Origin: an uncultured Eubacteriales bacterium
GTDB taxonomy: Bacteria; Bacillota; Clostridia; Saccharofermentanales; Fastidiosipilaceae
Assembly: GCA_902373515.1 (NCBI GenBank)
Contig: CABKML010000003.1
Coordinates: 1-64,000 of the forward strand
Direction of reading: 5' to 3'
Length of the DNA: 64,000 nt
This document shows positions 7,472 through 62,744 of this stretch, piece after piece. Each line of letters opens with the position of its first letter. Position 1 is the stretch's first letter. Under the pieces are notes generated by a model that had not been told where the DNA came from, made no database searches, and saw nothing but the letters and a program-made list of their open reading frames with translations. The position numbers and the translations under genes are program-made.

Positions 7472-8425
7472 CTATTTCAACAGTTGTAAATCCTGAAGGT
7501 CAATTCCCATAATATTCAAAATCTCGGAAAAACTTACCGAGTGAAAGGCTTTTCTGTATTTTTCAAGTAATTTAGTAAGTTCTGAATAGAACTTCTGAAA
7601 ATACTTCTTATCAAGCAATAGTTTTAAATATAAGATCGCCACTATAATACGAGAGTTATCATAATGCTCAAATTTGAAATGTTTAGCAACATTTGCAACT
7701 TTCACATTTCTAAAATTGGAATTATACAATCGTTCGTCATGAGCACATTTATTTCTAACTAAGTTAATAATCTTTAATGCAGAAGCTAAATCAGCACCGG
7801 ATATTCGCAAAACGTTATTAGACACGTACTGTTTTACATATTTATCATAATAAAATTTTGCTATCACATTCTTATCCGCATCAATTAATATATCATAAAG
7901 GTGAGCCAGATTACCTATAGTAAGATAGTTTACTAAACCCCATAAAGGTACGGCACCATACTCTTCTATGTAATGCTTGATAGCACCTTCTTTATCGACC
8001 TTGTCATGGATGGTTTTTGTGAGAATAGCAATCTGTTGCAGAACTTTTTTCGGATTATTCTCAACATAGTTTTTAATTTCCAAATAAGAGTTAGGCTTAG
8101 GATATTTCCTGCAGAATTCATGTGATATGACCGTTTTAAATGAATTTTCGAATATTAGAACATATTTGAGAAATATAAATCTCAATTCACGGTCAAACAA
8201 AAACAATGCTTTTAACTCGTTAAAATGAGTTCCTTTGCGATACTGCTCCGGTATTATCGGTTTATTATCATCGGTTCTTTCCAAGAATAAATCTTTATAT
8301 CCGTTGATAATATTATAATAGTTTTCTGTTTCTAAGAATCTTTTAGGCTGACCGTTAGTGGGAACTTCAAGGCCTCTACTTCGTAGTATTGCTAATTGCT
8401 GATTGAATGTTTTATACTCTTTCAC
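7472..8425 (-). CDS. Abi-family (AbiD/F-like, HEPN-type) abortive infection protein
   Basis: This matches the Abi_2 family of phage abortive-infection proteins. The N-terminal YKTFNQQLAILRSRG and NYYNIINGYK stretches and a late HEPN-style RNKCAH motif (R224-H229, R-N-x3-H) are typical. HEPN proteins of this kind are usually ribonucleases acting on host RNA. I chose the GTG at 8423-8425, six bases after TGAGGTG; another in-frame GTG lies three codons upstream at 8432-8434. The gene is alone between two 30-bp direct repeats next to a tRNA operon. It has its own promoter (8489-8517) and a terminator hairpin in the leader. The family call is fairly firm; activity against phage is inferred. Confidence 0.85.
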   Translation of the reverse strand: MKEYKTFNQQLAILRSRGLEVPTNGQPKRFLETENYYNIINGYKDLFLERTDDNKPIIPEQYRKGTHFNELKALFLFDRELRFIFLKYVLIFENSFKTVISHEFCRKYPKPNSYLEIKNYVENNPKKVLQQIAILTKTIHDKVDKEGAIKHYIEEYGAVPLWGLVNYLTIGNLAHLYDILIDADKNVIAKFYYDKYVKQYVSNNVLRISGADLASALKIINLVRNKCAHDERLYNSNFRNVKVANVAKHFKFEHYDNSRIIVAILYLKLLLDKKYFQKFYSELTKLLEKYRKAFHSVSFSEILNIMGIDLQDLQLLK

Positions 8426-8437
8426 TCCGCACACCTC

Positions 8438-12558: not shown

Positions 12559-15423
12559 CTATTCGCACCCCAAATTTTTAATAATATCCGACTTCGTTGC
12601 CGCTTTGACCGGGAAGTAGGCAGCTAAAGTGACAAAAATCAGAATCAGGAAAATAACTGTTACTACTTCCAATGGCGGAACCACAAAGTTATAACTGATA
12701 TTTATACCGAAATCCAACGGCAGAACATACAAACCGAAGGCAGCAAAAGCCAAGCCTATAATGATACCGACAACAAGCGAAGTCACGCTTAAGCTGTAGG
12801 CTTCCAATAAAATCATCTGCCGCACCGATTTTTTATCCAAACCGACTGCCCGGAGTAAAGCTGTTTCCCGTTTTCTACTCCAAACGGCTAAATTCAAAGT
12901 GTTGGCCACGCCGATCAGGGCAACCAGAGAAACAATAGATATCAGCAGGATTAAAATCAGGCGCATCGACCACAATACAATATTTAACATGCTGAGTAAA
13001 ACTAATGCTCCCTGAATGTTCATCTGACTGTTCAAAGTCAGACTCTCGAATTCTTTCAGCAATTTGTAGCTGTCGAATAAACCTTTTTTCACGCCGGCGA
13101 CCAGCATAACATTCTGCTTTTTAACATTGCATTTCTTACTGATCATCTCGGCAGCATCAGGGCTGATATAAGCGGATATATTAAATAAGTTTGTCATAAA
13201 AGGACTTGATTCGGAATTAATTAAACGCAATTTGAATTCAAAAGTCTGCTCACCGTAGCGCAGCTGAACTTTTTGTCCGTCGCTGAACTTACCGTCCAAA
13301 TTTTTTGCCGGTGTATAAACGGCTATTTCCCCCGATTTCAACGTAAAATTGCGGCGGGAGATTGTCCCTAAATCCGGTAAAGCCAGAATTTTACCGTCAG
13401 CTTCTTTTTTCTCGATTTTCCGTTCGCCGATAATAAACGCATCCGGCTGCGGCAGCGCTGCTAAAAGCAAAGATTTATCGACGCCTGCAACTTGAGTTAA
13501 ATTTTCCCAAACTTCCGGTTTTACCTCATTTTCTTTTCCATTATACTGTTGCACAATTACATCGATCGGGCAAAGTTTTTTGACACTGTCAGTGATTGTG
13601 CTTTGTAAAGAAGCACCGCCGACGATAGTTGTAATAATCATTATTATGCCCATAAATAAGGCTGCCATCGTCGCTCCGCTGCGTTCCCTGTTACGACGTA
13701 AATTCATCGCCGCCAATTTTACTACAGCCGATTTCGGGCCCCACTTCTGCAAAATTCCGGCCGTCAATAAAGGCAAATATCTTTTACCGATATAAACTGC
13801 GAAAATCAAATACAAAACAGCTCCGAGAAACAGGCAGGGAACAGCATACGCAGCCTCTTGCGTTAATTTATGTTCCGCATTGTAACTGTTACGGAAATAG
13901 ACTGCCGCAGCAAAATTCAAAGTCGCAGCTACAGCTACTAAAAACATTACAAACTTACTCAGACGGCCCGTTTTACTTTTCCGCTGCTGCCATTGCAGAA
14001 GGTTTTCATTAAAAGCGGCAATCGGCGGAACTTTGTTATTTTCTTTCGCCGGTTTTAAGCTTCCCCAAGCGGTAATCAATGTGCCGGTCAAAACTGTAAT
14101 AACGGCAGCTTTATAGCCGAATAAATTCCAGGCATGTTGATAAGAACCGATAATCTCCAGTTTGACCATAAGTAGTAAGCTGAGAGCGTAAGCGATAAAT
14201 ACGCTGATTAAAGAACTGAATAATCCCAGTATTAAGCATTCAAGAATACTGTATCGTACCAATTTACGGTAAGAAGCACCGACACAACGCAGCAGCGCAA
14301 TTTCCCGCCGTCTCCGACTTAATATAACATTAAAGGTTGACGTGATGATTATATAGCAAACAAACATTGTCAACAGCGGGAAGGTCAATAAGGCGATATT
14401 CAAGCCGCGTTTAATGACTTGGGAGGAACCGCCAACCGCCTGCTTAAATTCCGCTGCTGAAAAAAGGCTCCAATTCCGCGGCAACAATTTATTTTTTTCC
14501 AAATATTGCTGCAGCAAAAGTTTTACCTGCTGCTTATTCGCGCCGTCCTGTAATTGAATTCGCCATGTTCTTACATTACTCAAATCTTCCTTGAATAAAT
14601 TACGCCAAGCGGCGGAAGAGACATAATACAAAGGTGCTCCTTGCGCGCGATGATAAGCATCTTGCGGAACAATTCCGACCACTTGGAACGCTTTTTCACT
14701 TTTTTTCTGTTTTAAGTTAACAGTATCGCCGATATGACAATGCAAATGTGCCGCCGTGTCGGCCGTAAGCAGAATTTCATTTTCCGACTGCGGGGCTCGG
14801 CCTTCTTTGATTGCGGGATTATATAAAGTTTTTTCAGTCATATAAGCCCCCAACATACCGCTTGTGCCGTATTTAGCGTTATCGGCTTGAACAACGCCGT
14901 AATACAGAGGATATACTGCCTTAATTTGCGGTATTTCTCTGATTATTTCCGGACGCAATTTATCTAATTCGTAATTTTCCGTGAGGTACTTTAATAAATT
15001 TTTCTGCACAATTTGCTGATATAAGTTCTCCCGCTTTTCCGGCTTATTTGCGTTCTTGCCGGCTTCTTTATCTTGAACGTGCTTAAAATCAGCTATCAAG
15101 TTGCTTAAATGTTTTTGTAAAAGTTCTTTATCCTCCTGCTGCAATTCTGAAATTTCAGCAATTCTGCCTTTTTTCGCCTGTAAATAATCAGGAATCGCTA
15201 CTGTAATATTTTTGTTTTTCTGTCCAATTAAAGTCTCGTCCAGCAAAAGTAGATCTGCTCCCTGAGTTTTAACATAATTTTTCGAGTTCATGATAAAGGT
15301 CATCGTATTGCCGGCGAATAAAGAACAAAGCATAAATATACAACTGATACCGATTGCCGATGCCGTTGCTATATACTGTTTTTTATTATTTTTTAAATAT
15401 GAGCGTACTAAAAAATTCATCAA
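12559..15423 (-). CDS. FtsX/MacB-type ABC transporter permease
   Basis: This large permease belongs to the MacB/LolC/FtsX group, which act as exporters or mechanotransmitters rather than importers. It has an N-terminal helix (~16-36), a long external domain (~40-340), an FtsX core with helices near 350-480, another pair of helices and external domain (~500-810), and a second FtsX core at the C-terminus containing SRKRETALLRAVG. The first core has the matching SRRRREIALLRCVGAS. The start overlaps the ATPase stop by 4 bp. The substrate cannot be told. With no two-component system or peptide gene nearby, a role in antimicrobial-peptide resistance is only a possibility. Confidence 0.88.
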   Translation of the reverse strand: MMNFLVRSYLKNNKKQYIATASAIGISCIFMLCSLFAGNTMTFIMNSKNYVKTQGADLLLLDETLIGQKNKNITVAIPDYLQAKKGRIAEISELQQEDKELLQKHLSNLIADFKHVQDKEAGKNANKPEKRENLYQQIVQKNLLKYLTENYELDKLRPEIIREIPQIKAVYPLYYGVVQADNAKYGTSGMLGAYMTEKTLYNPAIKEGRAPQSENEILLTADTAAHLHCHIGDTVNLKQKKSEKAFQVVGIVPQDAYHRAQGAPLYYVSSAAWRNLFKEDLSNVRTWRIQLQDGANKQQVKLLLQQYLEKNKLLPRNWSLFSAAEFKQAVGGSSQVIKRGLNIALLTFPLLTMFVCYIIITSTFNVILSRRRREIALLRCVGASYRKLVRYSILECLILGLFSSLISVFIAYALSLLLMVKLEIIGSYQHAWNLFGYKAAVITVLTGTLITAWGSLKPAKENNKVPPIAAFNENLLQWQQRKSKTGRLSKFVMFLVAVAATLNFAAAVYFRNSYNAEHKLTQEAAYAVPCLFLGAVLYLIFAVYIGKRYLPLLTAGILQKWGPKSAVVKLAAMNLRRNRERSGATMAALFMGIIMIITTIVGGASLQSTITDSVKKLCPIDVIVQQYNGKENEVKPEVWENLTQVAGVDKSLLLAALPQPDAFIIGERKIEKKEADGKILALPDLGTISRRNFTLKSGEIAVYTPAKNLDGKFSDGQKVQLRYGEQTFEFKLRLINSESSPFMTNLFNISAYISPDAAEMISKKCNVKKQNVMLVAGVKKGLFDSYKLLKEFESLTLNSQMNIQGALVLLSMLNIVLWSMRLILILLISIVSLVALIGVANTLNLAVWSRKRETALLRAVGLDKKSVRQMILLEAYSLSVTSLVVGIIIGLAFAAFGLYVLPLDFGINISYNFVVPPLEVVTVIFLILIFVTLAAYFPVKAATKSDIIKNLGCE

Positions 15424-16139
15424 ATCACCTCTTGCAGGAAGGCCATCTCGGGACGGTAGACATCGTTGGCAATTTCGCCGTCGCTTATAACAATTACTCT
15501 GTCGGCTGTAGCGGCAACTTTGCGATCGTGAGTTACGACAACAACAGTTTGCTGCAATTCATCAACAGCTTGGCGCAATATTGTCATTACTTCCTGCCCG
15601 CTTTTACTGTCTAAATTACCTGTCGGTTCGTCACACACCAACAACGCCGGCTGCATAATTAAAGCTCGAGCTATGGCAACTCTTTGTTGTTGGCCGCCTG
15701 ATAATTCCGCCGGTAAGTGACGCAAACGGGTTTGCAAACCTAAAGTTGCAGCAACTTGTCTAACCTTTTCCCAATTCTGTTTTTTACCTGCCAGCAGTAA
15801 AGGCAACATGATATTCTCTTCTACATTCAAATTCGGTAATAAGTTAAAGGCTTGGAAGACAAAACCTACTTGTTGTAAGCGAAATTTTGTCAATTGGGCA
15901 TCGTTCATTAAGTTCAACGCCTGATCGGCAACATTAACGGTGCCGGAACTGACGCTGTCCAAGCCGACCAGACAATGCAACAGAGTTGATTTGCCGGATC
16001 CCGACGCTCCCACGATGGCGGTAAATTCACCTTTTTTTAATCTTAAACTGACATTATTCAAAGCAATAACTCTACTGTTGTTTTCTCCGTAAACTTTGCT
16101 GACATTTGTTAATACTGCCAAATCTTCGCTCGTTTTCAT
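15420..16139 (-). CDS. ABC transporter ATP-binding protein (MacB/LolD type)
   Basis: This is the ATPase partner of the FtsX-type permease. Walker A is GASGSGKST, the signature is LSGGQQQRVAIARAL, Walker B/D-loop reads LLVCDEPTGNLDS and the H-loop is VVTHD. I chose the ATG at 16137-16139 because GGAGGA lies five bases before it; an upstream in-frame ATG (16170-16172) lacks a site. The product is 239 aa. It forms a two-gene operon with the permease. Confidence 0.93.
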   Translation of the reverse strand: MKTSEDLAVLTNVSKVYGENNSRVIALNNVSLRLKKGEFTAIVGASGSGKSTLLHCLVGLDSVSSGTVNVADQALNLMNDAQLTKFRLQQVGFVFQAFNLLPNLNVEENIMLPLLLAGKKQNWEKVRQVAATLGLQTRLRHLPAELSGGQQQRVAIARALIMQPALLVCDEPTGNLDSKSGQEVMTILRQAVDELQQTVVVVTHDRKVAATADRVIVISDGEIANDVYRPEMAFLQEVI

Positions 16140-16261
16140 AAGTCCTCCTACATTAAGACGTTTTATATACATTTAATTTAGCAATTATAAAAGCTGAAAG
16201 TCTTAATTGAGTATTAAGTTTTCAGCTCGGGGTAAAAGTTGCGAATTAGCAGTTTAAAAAA

Positions 16262-16294
16262 GATAAATAAAGCGGTGAAGTTCTTTTCACCGCT
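16262..16294 (-). terminator. terminator of protease/inhibitor operon
   Basis: Minus-strand stem AGCGGTGAA/TTCACCGCT with a six-base loop is followed by a T-rich tail, 7 bp after the last gene. Confidence 0.75.
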
Positions 16295-16300
16295 CCGTTC

Positions 16301-16867
16301 TTACTTGTTCGCTGTTGCCGGCTGCTTGAATTTCAAGGCAATTTGCAGGTGGTAGTTAATATGCCGTTCGTTAACGGGTTTCTTGTTTTCAGAACAGTTG
16401 TAGTAATAGAAGTGTAAAACTGTATCTTTGGCTTCAGTTAAAGTCATGTTATAAACTAAAACACATGGAGACCCTCCGTCAAGCTTCTCTCTTACTGCAA
16501 AGCATTCTCTTTTCAAGGAATAATTTTTAATACACTCCTGTTGATTAGGAAATGTCCATATAAAAACCACAGGTTTAGCAAGTATGATTTCCCAGTCGAC
16601 AGTTGCTTTATCCACCTCCACGGTAACAGTCTCATTAACTGTTTCGGCATTATGCGGAGTTTTCCGAGCATCTGAACTTTTGAAAATAGGTAAATCGTAT
16701 TTTTTACCGTTTATCAACAGCACATTACTATCAGGATAACCGGGGCGATGACAAGGAAACTTTTTCCAAGAAGGGCCTTCGCTGAAGATAAAAATCGCAG
16801 CTATTGCTATTAAAACAATTATCACCGGACAGATAATTTTTATTAGAATTCGATTGTGTTTTCCCAT
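16301..16867 (-). CDS. membrane-anchored protein, candidate chagasin-like (I42) protease inhibitor
   Basis: I do not recognise a named gene. One N-terminal membrane helix (residues ~8-28) is followed by an outside domain of about 160 aa. From ~78 on the layout recalls the chagasin inhibitor fold: VTVEVDKATVDWEIIL, then FIW, then a GG pair at 131-132 where chagasins have their glycine-rich loop, then VLHFYYYN where they have the RPW strand, and a final beta strand. The three chagasin loops (NPTTG, GxGG, RPW) are not conserved literally. The start (with GGAG 10 bases upstream) lies inside the 3' end of the protease gene, a 25-bp overlap, so coexpression is tight. A cognate inhibitor of that protease is inferred. 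Confidence 0.6.
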   Translation of the reverse strand: MGKHNRILIKIICPVIIVLIAIAAIFIFSEGPSWKKFPCHRPGYPDSNVLLINGKKYDLPIFKSSDARKTPHNAETVNETVTVEVDKATVDWEIILAKPVVFIWTFPNQQECIKNYSLKRECFAVREKLDGGSPCVLVYNMTLTEAKDTVLHFYYYNCSENKKPVNERHINYHLQIALKFKQPATANK

Positions 16868-17958
16868 GAAAAACTATCTCCATCAAGTACATAAGTAAAA
16901 TTGCCGGAATCATCAAGTGTTACACTCTCACGCCTACCCCCATTCGGTTCCAGTAAAATTAACACTCGATCGCCACCATAATTACTGTCCCACTCTTCAA
17001 AACCTATCAAGCCAACTGAATGGCCCTCATTTCCTACAAGACGTAGATGCATCGGATCACCACTGTTAATATTGCTTTTAACTCTACCAAATCCTATTAC
17101 ACCCATATAAGATGGATACACGCCCCAATGATTATAGGCATTTTTCATATCATCCCAACCTCCACCGTGATTCCAAGAATCTCCATAAATATAACGGGCA
17201 ACATCAATATCTGACAAACTTGTCCCTTTGTAATAATTAATAATTGCTGCACACGTTGCTGCCCAACAAGTTTCACCTTGCTGAGAAACTCCGGCAATCG
17301 ACAGGACATTAGATTCATACGGCGGTACCGGAGCCAACAACATACCGGCACTTCTTTCAGAACTTTTAACGGCAGTCTTCAAATCTTTTAAGCTTAATGC
17401 CGTATTTGTTGCTACCTCATAATCACCAACGCTTCTTACGGCATAATTTGTTTCAGACGGATTAAGAGCATATATAACTTTAGCAGTCTTACCGTCATAA
17501 GCGTACAAATTAACACTATCAGTAAACAAAGTATATTGAGTCTTTCCCTCTAAAAACAACTTTTCCAATTCTCGGGAAAAGGCAACACTCAAAATAGAGT
17601 TGTATTTACCGGCGCTTTTACTTACTTGTAAAATAGCAATTATTTTTTCTCTATCTACTACCGGATAATAGGCGGCAGATTGATGATTTTCTATATTATA
17701 AATCTCAAAAGCTTGTCCCAAGTAGCAATTATTGGAGACTTTTAATTCTTCAGCAGTATTCAGAGCGTGCAAATGCTTCGGTAAAATCCTCAAAGCATAT
17801 TCGTTAACTTCTGCAGCTACAGGATTGCTTTTAATAGTTACTCCATTATCGGCAGCACTTGAAAACACAAAACTGCCGCACGCAATAACAAACGCCAATA
17901 CTGTTGTCGTCAATTTGCGCAAACTAGAAAAACATTTTGTTATGTCTGATTTTTTCAT
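16843..17958 (-). CDS. secreted papain-like cysteine protease
   Basis: A signal peptide (residues ~1-36, ending near SSAAD) is followed by a pro-like region (~37-215) and a C-terminal catalytic domain (~216-371). The catalytic set is visible: Gln (226 or 227) and Cys231 in QQGETCWAA, His313 in NEGHSVGLIGF and Asn339 in LLEPNGG. This matches the papain-like/staphopain (C39/C47-like) layout. The protein should be exported, and the pro-region probably keeps it inactive at first. The ATG has GGAGG seven bases upstream. It has its own strong promoter with a palindrome in the leader. It overlaps the candidate inhibitor gene, which recalls protease-inhibitor operons such as staphopain/staphostatin. 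Confidence 0.85.
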   Translation of the reverse strand: MKKSDITKCFSSLRKLTTTVLAFVIACGSFVFSSAADNGVTIKSNPVAAEVNEYALRILPKHLHALNTAEELKVSNNCYLGQAFEIYNIENHQSAAYYPVVDREKIIAILQVSKSAGKYNSILSVAFSRELEKLFLEGKTQYTLFTDSVNLYAYDGKTAKVIYALNPSETNYAVRSVGDYEVATNTALSLKDLKTAVKSSERSAGMLLAPVPPYESNVLSIAGVSQQGETCWAATCAAIINYYKGTSLSDIDVARYIYGDSWNHGGGWDDMKNAYNHWGVYPSYMGVIGFGRVKSNINSGDPMHLRLVGNEGHSVGLIGFEEWDSNYGGDRVLILLEPNGGRRESVTLDDSGNFTYVLDGDSFSWENTIEF

Positions 17959-17982
17959 ACATAACCCTCCTTAATCTTTATT

Positions 17983-17999
17983 TTCTTCCTCAGGAAGAA
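17983..17999. promoter_or_regulatory. perfect 17-bp palindrome in protease leader (operator candidate)
   Basis: TTCTTCCT-C-AGGAAGAA lies between the predicted transcription start (~18006) and the protease ribosome binding site. A repressor bound here would block transcription. Confidence 0.55.
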
Positions 18000-18012
18000 T
18001 ATCTGTACTTAA

Positions 18013-18041
18013 CTTATAAATCCCCCACTCCTAAGTGTCAA
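18013..18041 (-). promoter_or_regulatory. promoter for protease/inhibitor operon
   Basis: TTGACA, 17 bp and TATAAG on the minus strand, about 55 bp upstream of the protease start. Confidence 0.8.
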
Positions 18042-18312: not shown

Positions 18313-20973
<2,661 letters not shown>

Positions 20974-37890: not shown

Positions 37891-39843
37891 TTACTTGGCA
37901 CTCTTGGCAATTACAGCGAAATCGGCAGCTTTCAAAGAAGCACCGCCGACCAGACCGCCGTCAATATCTTTTTGACCGAACAGTCCGGCTGCATTAGCGG
38001 CATTAACGGAACCGCCGTACAAAATCCGCAAGCTGTCAGCTGTCTCACGGCTATACAACTTGGCAACTTCGTCCCGAATGAAAGCGCAAACTTCCTCCGC
38101 CTGTGCATCGGTTGCTGTCTTACCCGTACCGATAGCCCAAATAGGTTCATAGGCGACAGTAAGGAAATGCAAATCAGACTCGGGTACACCGGCCAAAGCG
38201 GCTTTAATCTGGTGACCAATCTTAGTAAATGTTTGTTGAGCTTCCCGTTCCGCTAAAGTTTCACCGCAGCAGAGAATGGGTCTTAAGCCCCAATGACGGC
38301 AAGCTTTAATTTTTTGATTAACAGTTTCATCTGTCTCGGCAAAATATTCTCTCCGCTCGCTATGGCCTAAAATAACGTACTTGACACCCATCCGTGCCAA
38401 CCACTCCGGGCTGACTTCACCGGTGTAAGCTCCCTTATCGGCAAAATGACAATTCTGAGCGGCAATTCTGATATCAGTTCCGGCTACAGTATCCAAAGCC
38501 TTGGCCAAAGCTGTGAAAGGAACGCCCAGAACTACTTCGCTGTTTTCTTCACCTTTTAATTCGGCTTGCAGGTCTGTAATCAATTTTTCCGCCTGTTTCG
38601 GCACGCCCTGATTCATCTTCCAGTTACCGGCAGCCATAATTGTGCGCGGATTCTTATCATCCAGGCAGGCTACACCCGGTAAAGTCTTACCTTCGAGGAA
38701 TTCCAGTGAGGCGCCGCCGCCTGTAGAAATATGTGTAACTTTGTCGGCAAAGCCCAATTGTTCAATAGCTGCAGCCGAATCGCCGCCACCGATAATAGAA
38801 ACGGCACCTGAATCTGCCACGGCCTTGGCTACTGCTTTGGTACCGACAGCAAATTTGGCAAACTCAAAGACGCCCATCGGTCCGTTCCAGACAACAGTCT
38901 TGGCATCCTTAACTGCATCGCAGAATTGTTTAATTGTCTCCGGTCCGATATCCAAGCCTTCCATATCATCAGGAATGTTCATCGTATCGACAACCTCAGA
39001 TTCCGTATCGGCAGTAAAATCATGACCGGCCATCGTATCTACCGGTAAGAGCAGCTTCACGCCCTTGGCCTCGGCCGCCTGCAAAATTTCTTTAGCTAAT
39101 TCCACCTTATCTTCTTCCAGCAAAGACTTACCGACTTTACCGCCGCGAGCAACAGCAAAAGTATAAGCCATACCGCCGCCGATAATTAAAGTATCAACTT
39201 TTTGAATTAAGTTTTGGATAACACCGATTTTATCGGAAACTTTAGCACCACCTAAGATTGCTACAAACGGGCGTTTCGGATTTTGTAAAGCCTGGCCCAT
39301 TACTTCCAATTCTTTTTGAATCAATAAACCGGAAACGGCCGGTAAATAATTGGCAACGCCGGCAGTAGAAGCATGTGCACGGTGGGCACTGCCGAAAGCA
39401 TCATTAACATAAACATCTGCCAAACTTGCAAGTTCACGCGCGAAAGCCGGGTCATTCTTTTTCTCTTTCGGATCGAAACGGATATTTTCCAACAAAAGAA
39501 TTTGTCCTGCTTTTAAGTCAGCTGCTTTGGCCTTGGCATCCTCACCCAGAGTATCTTTGGCCATAATAACTTTTTGACCCAATAATTCACTTAAACGTTC
39601 GGCAACCGGAGCCAAGCTGAATTTAGGATCAACTCCCTTCGGACGGCCTAAGTGCGAAGTCAAAATCAATGCTGCGCCGTTAGCCAGCAAAGTTTTAATT
39701 GTCGGCAAAGCTGCTTTAATACGTTTATCATCGGTAATTTCACCGGTTTTCTTGTCCTGCGGTACGTTAAAATCCACGCGTACCAGAACTTTTTTGCCTT
39801 TTACACAAATATCGGCAATATTCTTCTTCTGCATTCCAGCCAT
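37891..39843 (-). CDS. pgk-tpiA: fused phosphoglycerate kinase - triosephosphate isomerase
   Basis: One 650-aa protein carries two glycolytic enzymes. Residues 1-~398 are [22 protein letters not shown], the GGAKVSDKI loop and the ATP site [13 protein letters not shown]. Residues ~400-650 are TIM: Lys409 in AGNWKMN, His494 in [10 protein letters not shown], Glu566 in [14 protein letters not shown] and the phosphate loop GGSVN. All catalytic residues are intact and there is no internal stop or separate tpiA start, so this is a true fusion, as known in Thermotoga. PGK makes ATP from 1,3-bisphosphoglycerate; TIM interconverts triose phosphates. The start ATG has GGAG seven bases upstream. Confidence 0.97.
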
Positions 39844-52289: not shown

Positions 52290-52865
52290 CTATTTTTTCA
52301 GACGGGTCAAAGCCGGTTGTAAGAGAATAATACCCAAAATAGCCAACAGCGTGTTCACGATGCCGTAAGGAATATTATATGTTGCAGAGCCGATGAAAGC
52401 TTCTAACCAACTCTTACCCGCCATATAGAAGAAAACTCCTGAAAAAATGGCAAAGAGGATGCGGACACAGCCGGCGATTAAGCAGCAAAGAACATTGGCA
52501 ATATTAATTCTTTGTTTGTTAAGAGCAGGAAATTTCCGATTCAGCGTACAGGCAAAACCGGCCAAACCCAAGCTGCCGTAGGCCAGAATATAATCCAACA
52601 GAACTTGAACTACATTAACAAAATAAGGATGAAGAATAAAATCAAGCAAGCCGAATATTGCGCCGACCAACATGCCCTTGCCCACGCCGTGACGAACGGC
52701 AAAGACAAACAAGGGTAAATAACCGAACAAATTAATCGAACCGCCTGCAGGCATTTGATACAATTTGAACCGGCTCAACACAATCGCCAATGCCAACATA
52801 ACGGCGCCTTCAGCCAGAACATATATCTTCTTGCTGTCAAATTTTTTACTACTTTCTTCAGGCAT
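52290..52865 (-). CDS. thiT: thiamine ECF transporter substrate-binding protein ThiT
   Basis: ThiT is the S component that captures thiamine for a shared ECF module. The sequence has six membrane helices and the family signatures: ALAIVLSRFKLYQMPAGGS and HPYFVNVVQVLLDYILAYGSLGLAG, which hold the thiamine-contacting residues. At 191 aa it has normal length. GAGG lies seven bases upstream of the ATG. A TPP riboswitch lies in its leader, confirming the substrate. The ECF ATPases must lie elsewhere. Confidence 0.95.
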   Translation of the reverse strand: MPEESSKKFDSKKIYVLAEGAVMLALAIVLSRFKLYQMPAGGSINLFGYLPLFVFAVRHGVGKGMLVGAIFGLLDFILHPYFVNVVQVLLDYILAYGSLGLAGFACTLNRKFPALNKQRINIANVLCCLIAGCVRILFAIFSGVFFYMAGKSWLEAFIGSATYNIPYGIVNTLLAILGIILLQPALTRLKK

Positions 52866-52922: not shown

Positions 52923-52964
52923 CAAAAATGAAACGGCAAAATCGCAAAAATGAAACGGCAAAAT
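52923..52964. repeat. two 20-bp tandem copies in the thiT leader
   Basis: CAAAAATGAAACGGCAAAAT occurs at 52923-52942 and 52945-52964, identical, with two bases between. The minus-strand GCCGTT in each can pair with AACGGC next to the aptamer's P1. Confidence 0.9.
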
Positions 52965-52971
52965 AAACAGC

Positions 52972-53059
52972 CGTTATGATTCCCTCCGCCGGCATTATCC
53001 GGATCAGGTAATGATGGTCCTTGCGTCTCAGCTGTCTCAACAGCTCCCATACCATAACG
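52972..53059 (-). ncRNA. TPP riboswitch (THI element)
   Basis: The minus strand shows the conserved thi-box: GCTGAGA, then ACCTGATCCGGATAATGCC, then GGAGGGAA. P1 is closed by CGTTATG/CATAACG at both ends. Binding of thiamine pyrophosphate should reduce expression of thiT just downstream. Confidence 0.95.
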
Positions 53060-53082
53060 ATTAATTCAGGATTAATGTCTAA

Positions 53083-58096: not shown

Positions 58097-60088
58097 TTAT
58101 TTTCTGTCGGCCGGGATTGCTGCAACTTGCGAATTGTTCTTGTCCGCTTGCTTTTCAGCGGCCTTATTCACCGGCTTATTAGACGGGTCGGCAGCTTTCT
58201 TCTCAACGTTCTTATCAGTTTCCTTGGCCGGCTTCTCGCTCCTGCCTTCAGGTTGTTTGGCAGCACCCTTATTTACCTGTTTATCGGACGAATTGTCGGC
58301 TTTCTTGTCAGTTTTCTCGTCGGCTTGTGCGGCTTGGTCGGCTTTAGCGACGTTCTTATCAACATTCTTAGCAGCGTTCCGGTCCGGCTTGCTATCCTTG
58401 TTAGTATCTTTGTCCTTTGCCTTATCCTTGGCCTTGTCCTCAGTTACAGCTGCATTTGAATTGCCTGTATCTACCGGCGTGTCACCACTATCTGTACCCT
58501 CATTGTCTTTAGGCGCTGCCGGCTTTAATTTCGGCAAAATATAGCCGTCTTTAAGTTCGACTTTGCCGTTTTTGACTTCCAAATCGTGACTGCTGACTTC
58601 AATATCCTGATCATCTTTGTAGATATGGAAAACAGCTTCGATATTCATAATATCGCTATCATCTACACCGTAATGCTCCATGAGATATTTTTTCATCAAA
58701 TCGACGCTTTGATCATCAACAATACCTTCCTGCTTCTTAATTTCTTCCTCATAATCGCCTACTTCAATATCTTCATAAATCAAGCTCGGATCTTCATAGG
58801 CAATACCGCCTGTTCCGTCAGCCCGATAAATATGCCAATGGTTACCGTGTTTCAAAGATTTGACGATACGCTTAGGGTCATTCGGATCCTGTTTGATTTT
58901 TTTCCGCGGAACATTCGGCTTAATATTTTGCGGATCGCCGTGCTTGCCTTGGAAAGTGCCGATTGTTACACCCGGACAATATTTTTTGATATCTTCATCC
59001 GTCGCGCCATGGCCAACAACATACTCTTTACCGTTTTTGTCATATACATGGTAATGATCGTCGTGCTTCAAAATCGTCACAATGCCTTTACCCGGCAATT
59101 CACTGGCATAAATAACATCAACGAACTTCAAACCCGGAACACTCGGTTCTTCCGAAGTTGTAGAAGAGCTGTCCGTTTGTCCGCTGCCGCTGCCTGTGCC
59201 TGAAGCATTGTAATCAGGAGAATTATGCTCATAATCACTGTCGGAAGGGGAACTTTCTTCGCTACTGTAATCCGGCGCAGCCTGCGGAACATTGTAATTA
59301 CCGCTGCTGCCGCTATTCGGCTTTATCGGATTAACCGGACAGTTTTTACCGGTGTAAATACCGAAAGAAGCATGCGGATACATGGATCTGGGGTCGCTGT
59401 AAGTAACTAATTCCCGCCCGTCGGCTGTATAGCAATGATAATGATCACCGTGTTGTAAAATTGCCACGATTTCATTGCGATTCGCCCTACGGCCTGAAGC
59501 TGAAGGACCCGCCTCGCTTCCGTCGCCTGCGAAAATGCCGGAAGTTTCTTCACCCATAACACCGCTCTCGCCGTCTGCAGTTTCCCGGTGCTGATGTTTA
59601 TGTTTCGCATGATCGGCATGTGTTCCGACGTATTGCGTGATTTTAATGTTCGGGAAAGCCGCCTGCGGGTTATCATGCGTAATATACTCTGTTCCGTCGG
59701 CCGTATAACAATGGTAGTGATCTCCATGTTGTTTGATCGCGACAATATTCAATTTTCTCAATTGATTCAAAGTTACGACGCTGACAAATTCCAACTCATC
59801 TTCTCCTGCAGTTTGAGCATTAGGATCAGAATAAGTAATTCTCTCCCGACCGTCCTTGGTGAAAACATGCCAGTGATCTCCGTGTTTAATCACTTTAACA
59901 ATATCTTCCTTTTTGATCTCGCTGTCCACCAGAACTTCAGTCGTGCTGTCTTTCTGATAATTAGTTGCTTTTTCTACAAAAGTTGTCTTCGCCTCCGTCA
60001 CTGCCGGCACGGTTCTTTTCGGACCGCTGCAAGCTGCCAACAATGAAGCTGTAATTAAAACACTTAAAATAATTTTTGCCGGACGCAT
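58097..60088 (-). CDS. histidine-triad (Pht-like) surface lipoprotein
   Basis: This is a surface lipoprotein (lipobox LAAC, Cys20) with five HxxHxH histidine triads: HGDHWH at 69, HGDHYH at 121 and 213, HDDHYH at 342 and HGNHWH at 414. Each triad is followed by a V/Y/C-x-x-x-D/NG-type turn, as in the Pht proteins of streptococci, which bind Zn2+ and pass it to the importer. A His-rich stretch (HADHAKHKHQH) lies near 157-167. Residues 255-315 are Ser/Asp-rich, and from ~515 to the end runs a Lys/Ala/Asp/Asn-rich low-complexity tail with repeats of the type DKNVxK and NKPVNKAA. It follows znuB by 94 bp. A zinc-scavenging role is inferred from motif and context. Confidence 0.88.
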   Translation of the reverse strand: MRPAKIILSVLITASLLAACSGPKRTVPAVTEAKTTFVEKATNYQKDSTTEVLVDSEIKKEDIVKVIKHGDHWHVFTKDGRERITYSDPNAQTAGEDELEFVSVVTLNQLRKLNIVAIKQHGDHYHCYTADGTEYITHDNPQAAFPNIKITQYVGTHADHAKHKHQHRETADGESGVMGEETSGIFAGDGSEAGPSASGRRANRNEIVAILQHGDHYHCYTADGRELVTYSDPRSMYPHASFGIYTGKNCPVNPIKPNSGSSGNYNVPQAAPDYSSEESSPSDSDYEHNSPDYNASGTGSGSGQTDSSSTTSEEPSVPGLKFVDVIYASELPGKGIVTILKHDDHYHVYDKNGKEYVVGHGATDEDIKKYCPGVTIGTFQGKHGDPQNIKPNVPRKKIKQDPNDPKRIVKSLKHGNHWHIYRADGTGGIAYEDPSLIYEDIEVGDYEEEIKKQEGIVDDQSVDLMKKYLMEHYGVDDSDIMNIEAVFHIYKDDQDIEVSSHDLEVKNGKVELKDGYILPKLKPAAPKDNEGTDSGDTPVDTGNSNAAVTEDKAKDKAKDKDTNKDSKPDRNAAKNVDKNVAKADQAAQADEKTDKKADNSSDKQVNKGAAKQPEGRSEKPAKETDKNVEKKAADPSNKPVNKAAEKQADKNNSQVAAIPADRK

Positions 60089-60182
60089 ATAGTCATCTCC
60101 TTTGATTTTTCATAATTTATATTAATGACTCAGAGTTTTATTCTGAGGAATTTTTCAAATTAAAAACTTGCAAAAAACTTAA

Positions 60183-60983
60183 TCAGGCTCGCCGTCTGTA
60201 CTTAACCGCCATCACTGCCAACAGAACGATAACTGCAATCAAAACGATAACCGAACCGGGTTTCAGGTCAAAATAATAAGAACAGATCAAGCCGATATAA
60301 ACATAGGCTGCAGATAATGCTATTGAAATGAACAAAGTCTGTTTATACGTTTTGCTGAATTGCATCGCACAAATGACGGGCAAAACCAGAAGCGAGGAAA
60401 CAATCAGGGAACCGATTGTTTTAGCGGCGATGGAAATAGTAATCGCGCCCAACAGTGTAAAAATAAAATTCAGCCAACGACTCTTTATTCCCAGAATTTC
60501 CGCCGCTTTGCTGTCAAATACCAGTAAATACAGCTGTTTGTAAATAACGGTGTATACGATTACTACCAGCGCTGAAACTGCTAAAACGAGGTAAAATTCG
60601 GCATCGCTGATGGTTACGATCGAACCGAACAGATACGAGCTGATCGCATTGCCGCTTGTATAGCTTGTAAATATACCGGCCAGACCTATAGCCGCCGAGA
60701 GAATTATTACGGTCGAAATTTCCTGATAGGCTTTAAGTTTAGCGGCTATCGTTTCAATACCCAAACCGGCGATCACGCAGGCTGCAACCGCGAAAAACAG
60801 CGGGTTAATTCCTACCAACAAACCCAAAGCCACGCCGGCCAGGGAAGCGTGCGCCAAGGTATCACCCATCATGGAGAGACGTTTCAAAAGTACAGTCAAT
60901 CCGATACACGGCAGGATAACGGCTAAAAGTGTACCGACTATAAAAGCTCTTTGCAGAAACTCGTATTCAAATATTGCACTCAT
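60183..60983 (-). CDS. znuB: zinc ABC transporter permease ZnuB
   Basis: This is a cluster 9 (Zn/Mn) ABC-3 family permease with eight predicted helices. The core signature is SMMGDTLAHASLAGVALG, and a late GSLIVSSLLVLPVICAMQF lines the path. At 266 aa it is normal. The ATG overlaps the znuC TGA by 4 bp. Confidence 0.93.
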   Translation of the reverse strand: MSAIFEYEFLQRAFIVGTLLAVILPCIGLTVLLKRLSMMGDTLAHASLAGVALGLLVGINPLFFAVAACVIAGLGIETIAAKLKAYQEISTVIILSAAIGLAGIFTSYTSGNAISSYLFGSIVTISDAEFYLVLAVSALVVIVYTVIYKQLYLLVFDSKAAEILGIKSRWLNFIFTLLGAITISIAAKTIGSLIVSSLLVLPVICAMQFSKTYKQTLFISIALSAAYVYIGLICSYYFDLKPGSVIVLIAVIVLLAVMAVKYRRRA

Positions 60984-61660
60984 AAGTCCGACTCCTCCAC
61001 ATTTTGAGCTTTGGCAAGTGCCACTTCCTGCAAACTGCCGTTTTTCAAGCGTAAAACCCTATCCGTATATTCCAGAACATCCGTCAAATTATGAGTTACC
61101 AATAATACGGTACAGCCCTGAAGCGTCAACTCTTTCAGCTTTTGCATCAACGATTTGGCGAAGCAACGGTCAATTGCAGCTGTCGGTTCATCCAGAATGA
61201 TCAATTTTGCTTCTTTGACCAAAGCCAACATCAAGGCTACCTTTTGTAACTGGCCTCCCGATAACTGACTCAGTTGCAGATTCGCCTGTTCAACCAAATC
61301 AACTTGCTGCAAATAAGGTTGCAAATCAACTTTCTTGTGCAAATAAGCCAAGTGAATTTTGAGTGCCTCTTTTACCGTTGTCGGAAAATTGCGATAAGAG
61401 GAAAAGGAGTTTTGGGAAATATAAGCTAAGTCGCGGTAATGCCGATCTTGGCAAATATCGTCCCCGAACAATTCGATTGTCCCGTTTTGCGGCGACAAGT
61501 TGCCCAACAACAGATTCAGCAGGGTGCTTTTGCCGCTGCCGTTAGCACCGATAATTGTCAATAACTCGCCTTTTTTTACTGTCAGACAAAGTTGTTTAAG
61601 TACGGTTTTACTTTCATAAGCAAAATCTATTTTCTCGGCTGAAATTACCGGCACCATCAC
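60980..61660 (-). CDS. znuC: zinc ABC transporter ATP-binding protein ZnuC
   Basis: This is the ATPase of the zinc importer: Walker A GANGSGKST, signature LSGGQLQKVALMLAL, Walker B LIILDEPTAAID and H-loop VTHN. At 226 aa it is compact. It starts 20 bp after znuA. Confidence 0.93.
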   Translation of the reverse strand: MMVPVISAEKIDFAYESKTVLKQLCLTVKKGELLTIIGANGSGKSTLLNLLLGNLSPQNGTIELFGDDICQDRHYRDLAYISQNSFSSYRNFPTTVKEALKIHLAYLHKKVDLQPYLQQVDLVEQANLQLSQLSGGQLQKVALMLALVKEAKLIILDEPTAAIDRCFAKSLMQKLKELTLQGCTVLLVTHNLTDVLEYTDRVLRLKNGSLQEVALAKAQNVEESDL

Positions 61661-61680
61661 AGTTTTCCTTTCTCTTTCTC

Positions 61681-62610
61681 TTACTCGCTCAGGACTTTCT
61701 CCAACTCCCGCAAATTACGTCGCATCAATTCAATATAACCGAGTTTGGCTTCTTCTTCCGTCAAATTCTCCAATGTATATATAGTTCCTGTCTTTGTGCC
61801 GGTATTTTTCGCCAAAGTTTCAGCAACTTTCGGGGTAGCTTTACCCTCGAACAGAATTGTTTTTATTCCGTGCTCTTTGACGAAATCGGCAATTTTCTTC
61901 AGTTGGGCTGCTGTCGGCTCATCTTCCGGGGAAATTCCGGTTACAGCTATCTGTTTCAGGCCATAATCACGGGCCAAGTAATTGAAGGCCGCATGCGAAA
62001 CTATAAAGCATTTGTCCTTTTTCTTAATACCGCTCAGAACTTTAGTAAACTCGTCGTCCAGAGCTTTAAATTCTTTGAGCGATTTTTGCAGATTCTGCTC
62101 ATAATAAGCCTTGTTGGCCGGGTCAATAACCGACAATTTACGGCAAATTGTATCCAACTGTTCCATCGCATTCTTGACGCTCAACCAGGTATGAGGATTA
62201 ACCGCATCGTGGTTGGCACTCGCCAAATCGCTCGCCGCTTCCAATAAAGTTAAGCCCTGCGATAAGTTCAGAAATTTTTCTTTATTTTTAACTGCCGCTT
62301 CAACGTCTTTGATGAAACCCTCCATATTGGCGCCGTTATAAACAATTAAATCTGCTTTGTTCAAGGCCGCCATATCACTTGATTTCAGTTCGAAGCTGTG
62401 CGGTTCTTCGTTGCTTTTGATCAGCATTTTCACATTCATTTTGTCGCCGACAATGCGTTTGGTTAAGTCATAGACGGGATAAAATGTTGTATAGATCAAC
62501 TTTTTACCGTTCTGTTCTGCCGGCGCTTTGTCTTTAGTTTGACAGGCGACAAGACCGAACAATAGACTTAAACTCAAAACTAAACTTAAAGTCTTAACTA
62601 ATTTTCGCAT
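61681..62610 (-). CDS. znuA: zinc-binding lipoprotein ZnuA (AdcA-like)
   Basis: This is the cluster A-I metal-binding protein. The lipobox is LVAC. Metal ligands appear as His in EEPHSFELK, His in NPHTWLS and His in VSHAAFNYLARDYG, with an acidic fourth ligand position near ILFEGKA. The His-rich loop of many ZnuA proteins is absent; its work may be done by the histidine-triad protein in the same operon. I chose the ATG at 62608-62610 with AGGAG 11 bases upstream; GTG codons and an ATG further upstream are in frame. It is first in znuA-znuC-znuB-pht. Confidence 0.92.
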   Translation of the reverse strand: MRKLVKTLSLVLSLSLLFGLVACQTKDKAPAEQNGKKLIYTTFYPVYDLTKRIVGDKMNVKMLIKSNEEPHSFELKSSDMAALNKADLIVYNGANMEGFIKDVEAAVKNKEKFLNLSQGLTLLEAASDLASANHDAVNPHTWLSVKNAMEQLDTICRKLSVIDPANKAYYEQNLQKSLKEFKALDDEFTKVLSGIKKKDKCFIVSHAAFNYLARDYGLKQIAVTGISPEDEPTAAQLKKIADFVKEHGIKTILFEGKATPKVAETLAKNTGTKTGTIYTLENLTEEEAKLGYIELMRRNLRELEKVLSE

Positions 62611-62744
62611 TTTCACTTTCACTCCTGTTGTTTGCCCTGTTTTGATCATTGAAGCTGAAATAAGGGCTTTTGTTTTCCAAGCAAGTCAAGCTGTATTCGG
62701 CTTCTTCAATTTTGCAAACGATTTTCAATTTCAATTACACTATT

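Follow-up and report, generated by a model that had tools for sequence, protein, structure and literature searches.

A candidate membrane-anchored chagasin-fold inhibitor encoded in overlap with a secreted staphopain-like protease in an uncultured Eubacteriales bacterium

In this work, we describe a pair of overlapping genes in a 64,000-nucleotide stretch of DNA (hereafter the window) from an uncultured Eubacteriales bacterium (assembly GCA_902373515.1, contig CABKML010000003.1). The pair and its signals all lie on the minus strand. The upstream gene (16843..17958) encodes a secreted, prostaphopain-like cysteine protease of the papain fold with 371 amino acids, and the downstream gene (16301..16867) encodes a protein of 188 amino acids, here called the partner, which is a candidate membrane-anchored inhibitor of the chagasin fold. 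Both open reading frames (ORFs) are present and share exactly 25 bp (16843..16867), as stated in a preliminary description of the region that ended at position 18041, 83 bp past the protease start codon. The partner ATG consists of the last base of the protease Ser364 codon and the first two bases of the Trp365 codon, and a Shine-Dalgarno-like GGAG (16878..16881) is found within the last protease codons, 10 nt upstream of that ATG. A hairpin of 11 pairs resembling an intrinsic terminator (16269..16296) begins 4 nt downstream of the partner stop, so that the two genes likely form a unit ending there; the hairpin is a consensus match only, and six terminator-like sites were found between 15900 and 18600 against a mean of 2.2 in shuffles.

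The protease has the architecture of a prostaphopain, with an N-terminal hydrophobic helix (residues 3-28), a staphopain-type pro-domain (about 40-211) and a papain-fold catalytic domain (about 212-371). The catalytic residues named in the preliminary description hold among 20 aligned proteases: C231 and H313 are identical in all of them, as is Q226, and N339 is identical in 19. In Pfam, the match to PF12385 (C70) is just over the cut-off of that family and the match to PF14731 is under its own, and no match to PF05543 (C47, staphopain) was listed at E up to 10. The protease is rare: a search of one class (391 genomes, E 1e-10) found it in five, of which two were known before, and no relatives were found in plasmid and phage collections. 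An anti-phage role was set aside, as neither gene has a PADLOC match. Elsewhere in the window (7472-8434, minus strand) PADLOC does identify an AbiD-type abortive-infection protein (E 6.3e-51).

The partner contains a single strongly hydrophobic stretch, with a best 19-residue mean hydropathy of 3.12 starting at residue 11 (helix about 11-29). Judged by eye from the positive residues, the helix would be oriented with the N-terminus inside and the C-terminus outside. It is followed by a module FPC..GYP..NVLLINGKKY (37-57) and by a chagasin-like domain (about 52-181). We scanned hydropathy and lipobox patterns with our own scripts in the relatives of the partner, which has 35 homologues. The lipobox pattern is present in eight of nine protease-linked partners and is absent from all 32 rows of alignment A1 (which omits four of the 35 homologues, P0002, P0008, P0009 and P0035), while a hydrophobic N-terminal stretch without lipobox is found in the remaining linked partner, that of Haloimpatiens lingqiaonensis (locus L008), and in all 32 rows. 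The persistence of an anchor whose chemistry changes suggests that the anchor matters. A chance ORF was discarded in view of the conserved overlap and the number of homologues.

AlphaFold2, run once per protein, predicted strands at residues 77-85, 91-97, 102-105, 113-122, 135-143, 149-157 and 172-180 of the partner, in a chagasin-type immunoglobulin (Ig) fold. The hydrophobic helix and beta-rich domain reported before are thus both found, together with the GG (130-131) of a loop and the YYYN (154-157) of a strand. Among solved structures, the model best matches chagasin-type inhibitors (I42/I71), which take ranks 1-5 in Foldseek, the comparison proposed in the preliminary description, and ranks 1-9 in VIA, with modest scores. 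From our own reading of the strand order in the model, three loops would correspond to those of chagasin: residues 98-104 (16556..16576) to L2, which varies among close relatives; 123-134 (16466..16501) to L4, the most variable stretch; and 158-171 (16355..16396) to L6. The motifs NPTTG, GxGG and RPW/F of the family I42 loops (PMC2607524; articles are cited here from excerpts, by PubMed Central accession), are absent from the partner, as already cautioned in the preliminary description. At the equivalent places it carries KPVVFIW, DGGSP and YYYNCSE, and the Trp following the first loop is identical in all 30 rows of alignment A7.

No Pfam family matches the window partner at E up to 10, and none of the 30 rows of A7 matches PF09394 (I42) at E up to 1. 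The H. lingqiaonensis partner is the only linked one over the Pfam I42 cut-off (39.3 vs 27.2 bits), and it was deliberately excluded from alignments A4, A5 and A7. A hidden Markov model (HMM) of the window family built without it gives it 19.3 bits, compared with a maximum of 14.2 over 2,000 shuffles; the protein did not turn up when the same alignment was used in a whole-genome search. Of eight further clostridial I42 proteins, one scored 18.9 bits with this HMM and seven scored no more than 6.1. Profile-profile comparison with I42 was weak with untrimmed columns (four profiles, with probabilities of 43, 6.2, 4.6 and 2.6%), and with trimmed columns it scored 36.4 (A4) and 30.1 (A7), against 17.1 and 18.7 for the best of 200 column shuffles. 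Compared by eye, the H. lingqiaonensis protein has GxS at the place of GxGG, as in most of the window family, and at the place of RPW it has FKYxN vs FK[W or other]xN in most of the family. Searches of PDB sequences with the inhibitor, its profiles or the H. lingqiaonensis protein returned chance-level matches or none. Given the HMM scores, the trimmed profile comparison and the bridge provided by H. lingqiaonensis, we consider the modelled chagasin fold well supported for a prediction, and the homology with I42, as judged from sequence, moderately supported. A staphostatin was set aside, since the predicted fold is chagasin-like and no staphostatin appeared among the Pfam or PDB sequence matches of the partner; the absence of staphostatins from the fold lists proves and excludes nothing.

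The pairing recurs. Scanning genomes with the protease alignment returned eight strong matches (L001-L008) and a family search a ninth (L038), and in all nine a small N-terminally anchored protein is encoded directly downstream on the same strand. Since seven of these nine loci share an overlap of 25 bp and one (L005) has 28 bp, the overlap exceeds chance; in L008 the genes are separated by a gap of 68 nt. The wobble base of the codon preceding Trp365 must be A to provide the partner ATG, and it is A in nine of nine overlapping loci, the window included. From the GCN/TCN codon usage of each gene, the product probability of this is about 9e-4, rising to 1.8e-3 when the near-duplicate L007 is omitted. 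By eye, nine of ten loci including the window have a purine-rich, Shine-Dalgarno-like stretch ahead of the partner ATG, L005 having no clear one.

Around ten other I42 loci, no such protease was found within the 2.5-3.3 kb examined (0/10). Six weaker and more distant protease matches (G104, G154, G112, G410, G426 and G621) have no chagasin-like partner among their listed ORFs and may have another kind of partner; G410 carries a chagasin-like copy elsewhere in the genome, not beside the protease. More distant staphopain-like proteases were also seen to be followed by a small protein of 118-131 amino acids with a hydrophobic N-terminus (L018:2856-3212, L040:2567-2962 and L041:2567-2962). No Pfam match over the cut-off was found for those of L018 and L040, the two scanned, and the three are perhaps a second, unrelated type of inhibitor. 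Scans of genome and viral contigs with the inhibitor alignment gave nothing useful.

Variation among close relatives was compared in three inhibitor clades picked by eye, which take in 29 rows of A1 and leave out the other three (P0026, P0033 and P0034). In the clade of the window (seven sequences), the domain has 25 variable positions, of which 15 fall within the 19 residues of the loops equivalent to L2 and L4, a clustering reached in 0 of 100,000 permutations; in the two further clades the counts are 13 of 35 (p 0.0009, four sequences) and 8 of 24 (p 0.035, 18 sequences), all of these p-values being after the fact, as the clustering was seen before the test. The whole block 98-134 shows no enrichment in the third clade (p 0.32). 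The set of all three predicted binding-end loops (33 residues), added later together with a control of opposite-end loops, gave p 0.00014, 0.14 and 0.00028 in the three clades, and the control showed no enrichment (p 0.54-0.63). In the protease, 46 of 51 differences between the window and P0037, 11 of 14 between the window and P0036, and 53 of 66 between P0038 and P0039 lie in the catalytic domain. Such a pattern would fit diversification of a binding interface. Loops are often tolerant of change in any case, however; the seven close inhibitors have recombined blocks in common and thus represent few events; and the protease and inhibitor variants were compared separately, none of them paired on one contig.

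The recurrence of an anchored partner beside the protease in distant bacteria suggests that the cell is shielded in this way from the enzyme it makes. We give a probability of about two in three to the reading that the partner, an anchored inhibitor of the chagasin fold made in translational coupling with a secreted staphopain-like protease, guards the surface of the producer. The protease would be secreted as a zymogen and made together with its own inhibitor by translational coupling. The partner would be a diverged domain of chagasin type (I42 fold) that faces outward from the producer's membrane and is held there by one helix (by a lipid anchor in most relatives) rather than cleaved off. 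Its loops 98-104, 123-134 and 158-171 would most likely bind the matured protease and plug its active-site cleft, and the enzyme so inhibited would spare the surface proteins of the cell that secreted it. The interpretation offered in the preliminary description is largely supported by the predicted fold, the recurrent pairing and the overlap. Against it, the loop motifs of chagasin are missing.

Inhibitor copies also occur away from the protease. In the family to which genome G004 belongs, 17 of 130 genomes match the inhibitor profile, two of them too weakly to be counted (G440, E 1.8e-5; G447, E 9.2e-4). Among the 15 counted copies, those of G004 and G446 are protease-linked, two are broken (G459, by stops, and G468) and 11 are open, no protease of this kind lying in the surrounding 10 kb or so; the copy of G442 is a few residues short at its end. 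When the G468 locus (L074) is set against L004, with flanks about 94% identical, a deletion is seen to have taken the protease and over half of the inhibitor, leaving the 3' tail at the same site. Some metagenomic copies start like a protease: the inhibitor relatives begin with MRKF or MKKF in 17 of 35 cases, and the two that were compared match protease starts at 13 of 14 residues; three Kallipyga-like copies have 16-17 of 19 residues in common with protease starts. Protease-like first residues are found in copies P0016, P0017 and P0093-P0095, in two separate groups. They would fit a deletion between the protease start and the inhibitor, and no contig was seen to display such an event.

These copies bear on a broader proposal, which we regard as unlikely: a bacterial protease/immunity system in which the protease harms competitors and the anchored chagasin-fold domain confers immunity, clefts and loops diversify into matched types, and non-producers retain the inhibitor for immunity only, in copies of which some start like a protease. 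They also favour the view that the partner is a genuine anchored inhibitor of cysteine proteases whose main targets are foreign, in neighbouring bacteria or among host cathepsins, the linked protease being secondary. In the same direction, the 11 open copies among the 130 genomes all bear a lipobox pattern, and of 16 carrier genomes (the 15 counted plus G171) only the two linked ones match C70 at E up to 0.01. C47 was found in two carriers, over the cut-off in G410, far from its inhibitor, and weakly in G192. The Pseudomonas chagasin Cip1 moreover acts on host proteases (PMC5014320). Nevertheless, the conserved overlap and the presence of a partner beside all nine strong protease matches tie the inhibitor to its own protease, and an anchored inhibitor would be ill placed against distant host enzymes, which makes foreign targets quite unlikely as the main ones.

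Linkage and anchoring would suit equally well a helper of the protease at the cell surface, be it a chaperone that folds it, a tether that holds it or a maturation factor that activates it, with no inhibition, and the protease already contains a staphopain-type pro-domain of its own. Such a helper seems very unlikely to us, as the domain is predicted to fold like protease inhibitors and the copies that persist without protease would be needless for a dedicated helper. The most improbable explanation is that the partner is a general Ig-like lipoprotein whose likeness to chagasin is accidental, the coupling reflecting co-expression only: the top nine VIA rows are all chagasin-type inhibitors, above unrelated rows, and the H. 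lingqiaonensis partner is I42 by Pfam.

Staphostatins act intracellularly, and in the staphopain-staphostatin pairs (C47/I57) the inhibitor is a beta-barrel, whereas the window partner is chagasin-like and anchored. The binding of these beta-barrels is described as substrate-like (PMC7863939), and the same excerpt bears out the staphopain/staphostatin pairs as a precedent for linked protease and inhibitor, as the preliminary description had it, beside the C10-linked inhibitors of Bacteroides. In B. fragilis, the Bfi proteins were judged likely to reside in the periplasm and cell membranes and were described as staphostatin-like, and Spi as a propeptide analogue (PMC2873492); the Bacteroides inhibitors are probably exported. 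Bfp-Bfi and SpeB-Spi share with the window pair a protease gene adjoining that of a small inhibitor candidate, but their proteases are C10 and that of the window is staphopain-like. The papain-like pairs 9l5u and CdiA-CT/CdiI 8ssm, which we take to be delivered toxins with soluble immunity proteins, differ from the protease with export signal and the anchored Ig-like partner of the window. Another parallel is offered by the papain-like domains of polymorphic toxins, which come with immunity proteins (PMC3482391).

In predicted topology and binding-end loops, the partner is like the chagasins of MEROPS family I42 (Trypanosoma cruzi chagasin, EhICP2, Pseudomonas aeruginosa ICP and P. syringae Cip1), of which its linked H. 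lingqiaonensis relative is a Pfam member. Unlike them, it has no NPTTG, GxGG or RPW, is membrane-anchored and is encoded in overlap with a protease gene. In 2016 the role of bacterial chagasins was described as not yet elucidated, Cip1 having been shown to act on plant proteases (PMC5014320). Among the matches listed in open-licence PubMed Central (titles and beginnings of abstracts), none reports linkage between an inhibitor of the chagasin fold and a staphopain-like protease. A chagasin-fold protein with a candidate endogenous target in an overlapping gene, in several bacterial lineages, makes the role of bacterial chagasins directly testable. If the surface-guard reading is true, it would add another architecture of protease-inhibitor operon, with the inhibitor tethered outside, beside those of staphostatins and C10-linked inhibitors, and would offer a natural series of paired variants from which specificity could be read.

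The pair is flanked by a purB-like gene (18313-19611) and a gene for the ATPase of an ATP-binding cassette (ABC) transporter (15420-16172), both named by eye. Elsewhere on the minus strand of the window, phosphoglycerate kinase and triosephosphate isomerase (also named by eye) are apparently fused in one frame of 650 amino acids (37891-39843). A thiamine pyrophosphate riboswitch (52964-53060, Rfam 63.1 bits) lies upstream of a small membrane protein (52290-52865), by eye perhaps a thiamine transporter. Finally, a large histidine-rich lipoprotein with HxxHxH-like repeats (58097-62649) is encoded near an apparent metal ABC transporter and binding protein, both recognised by eye.
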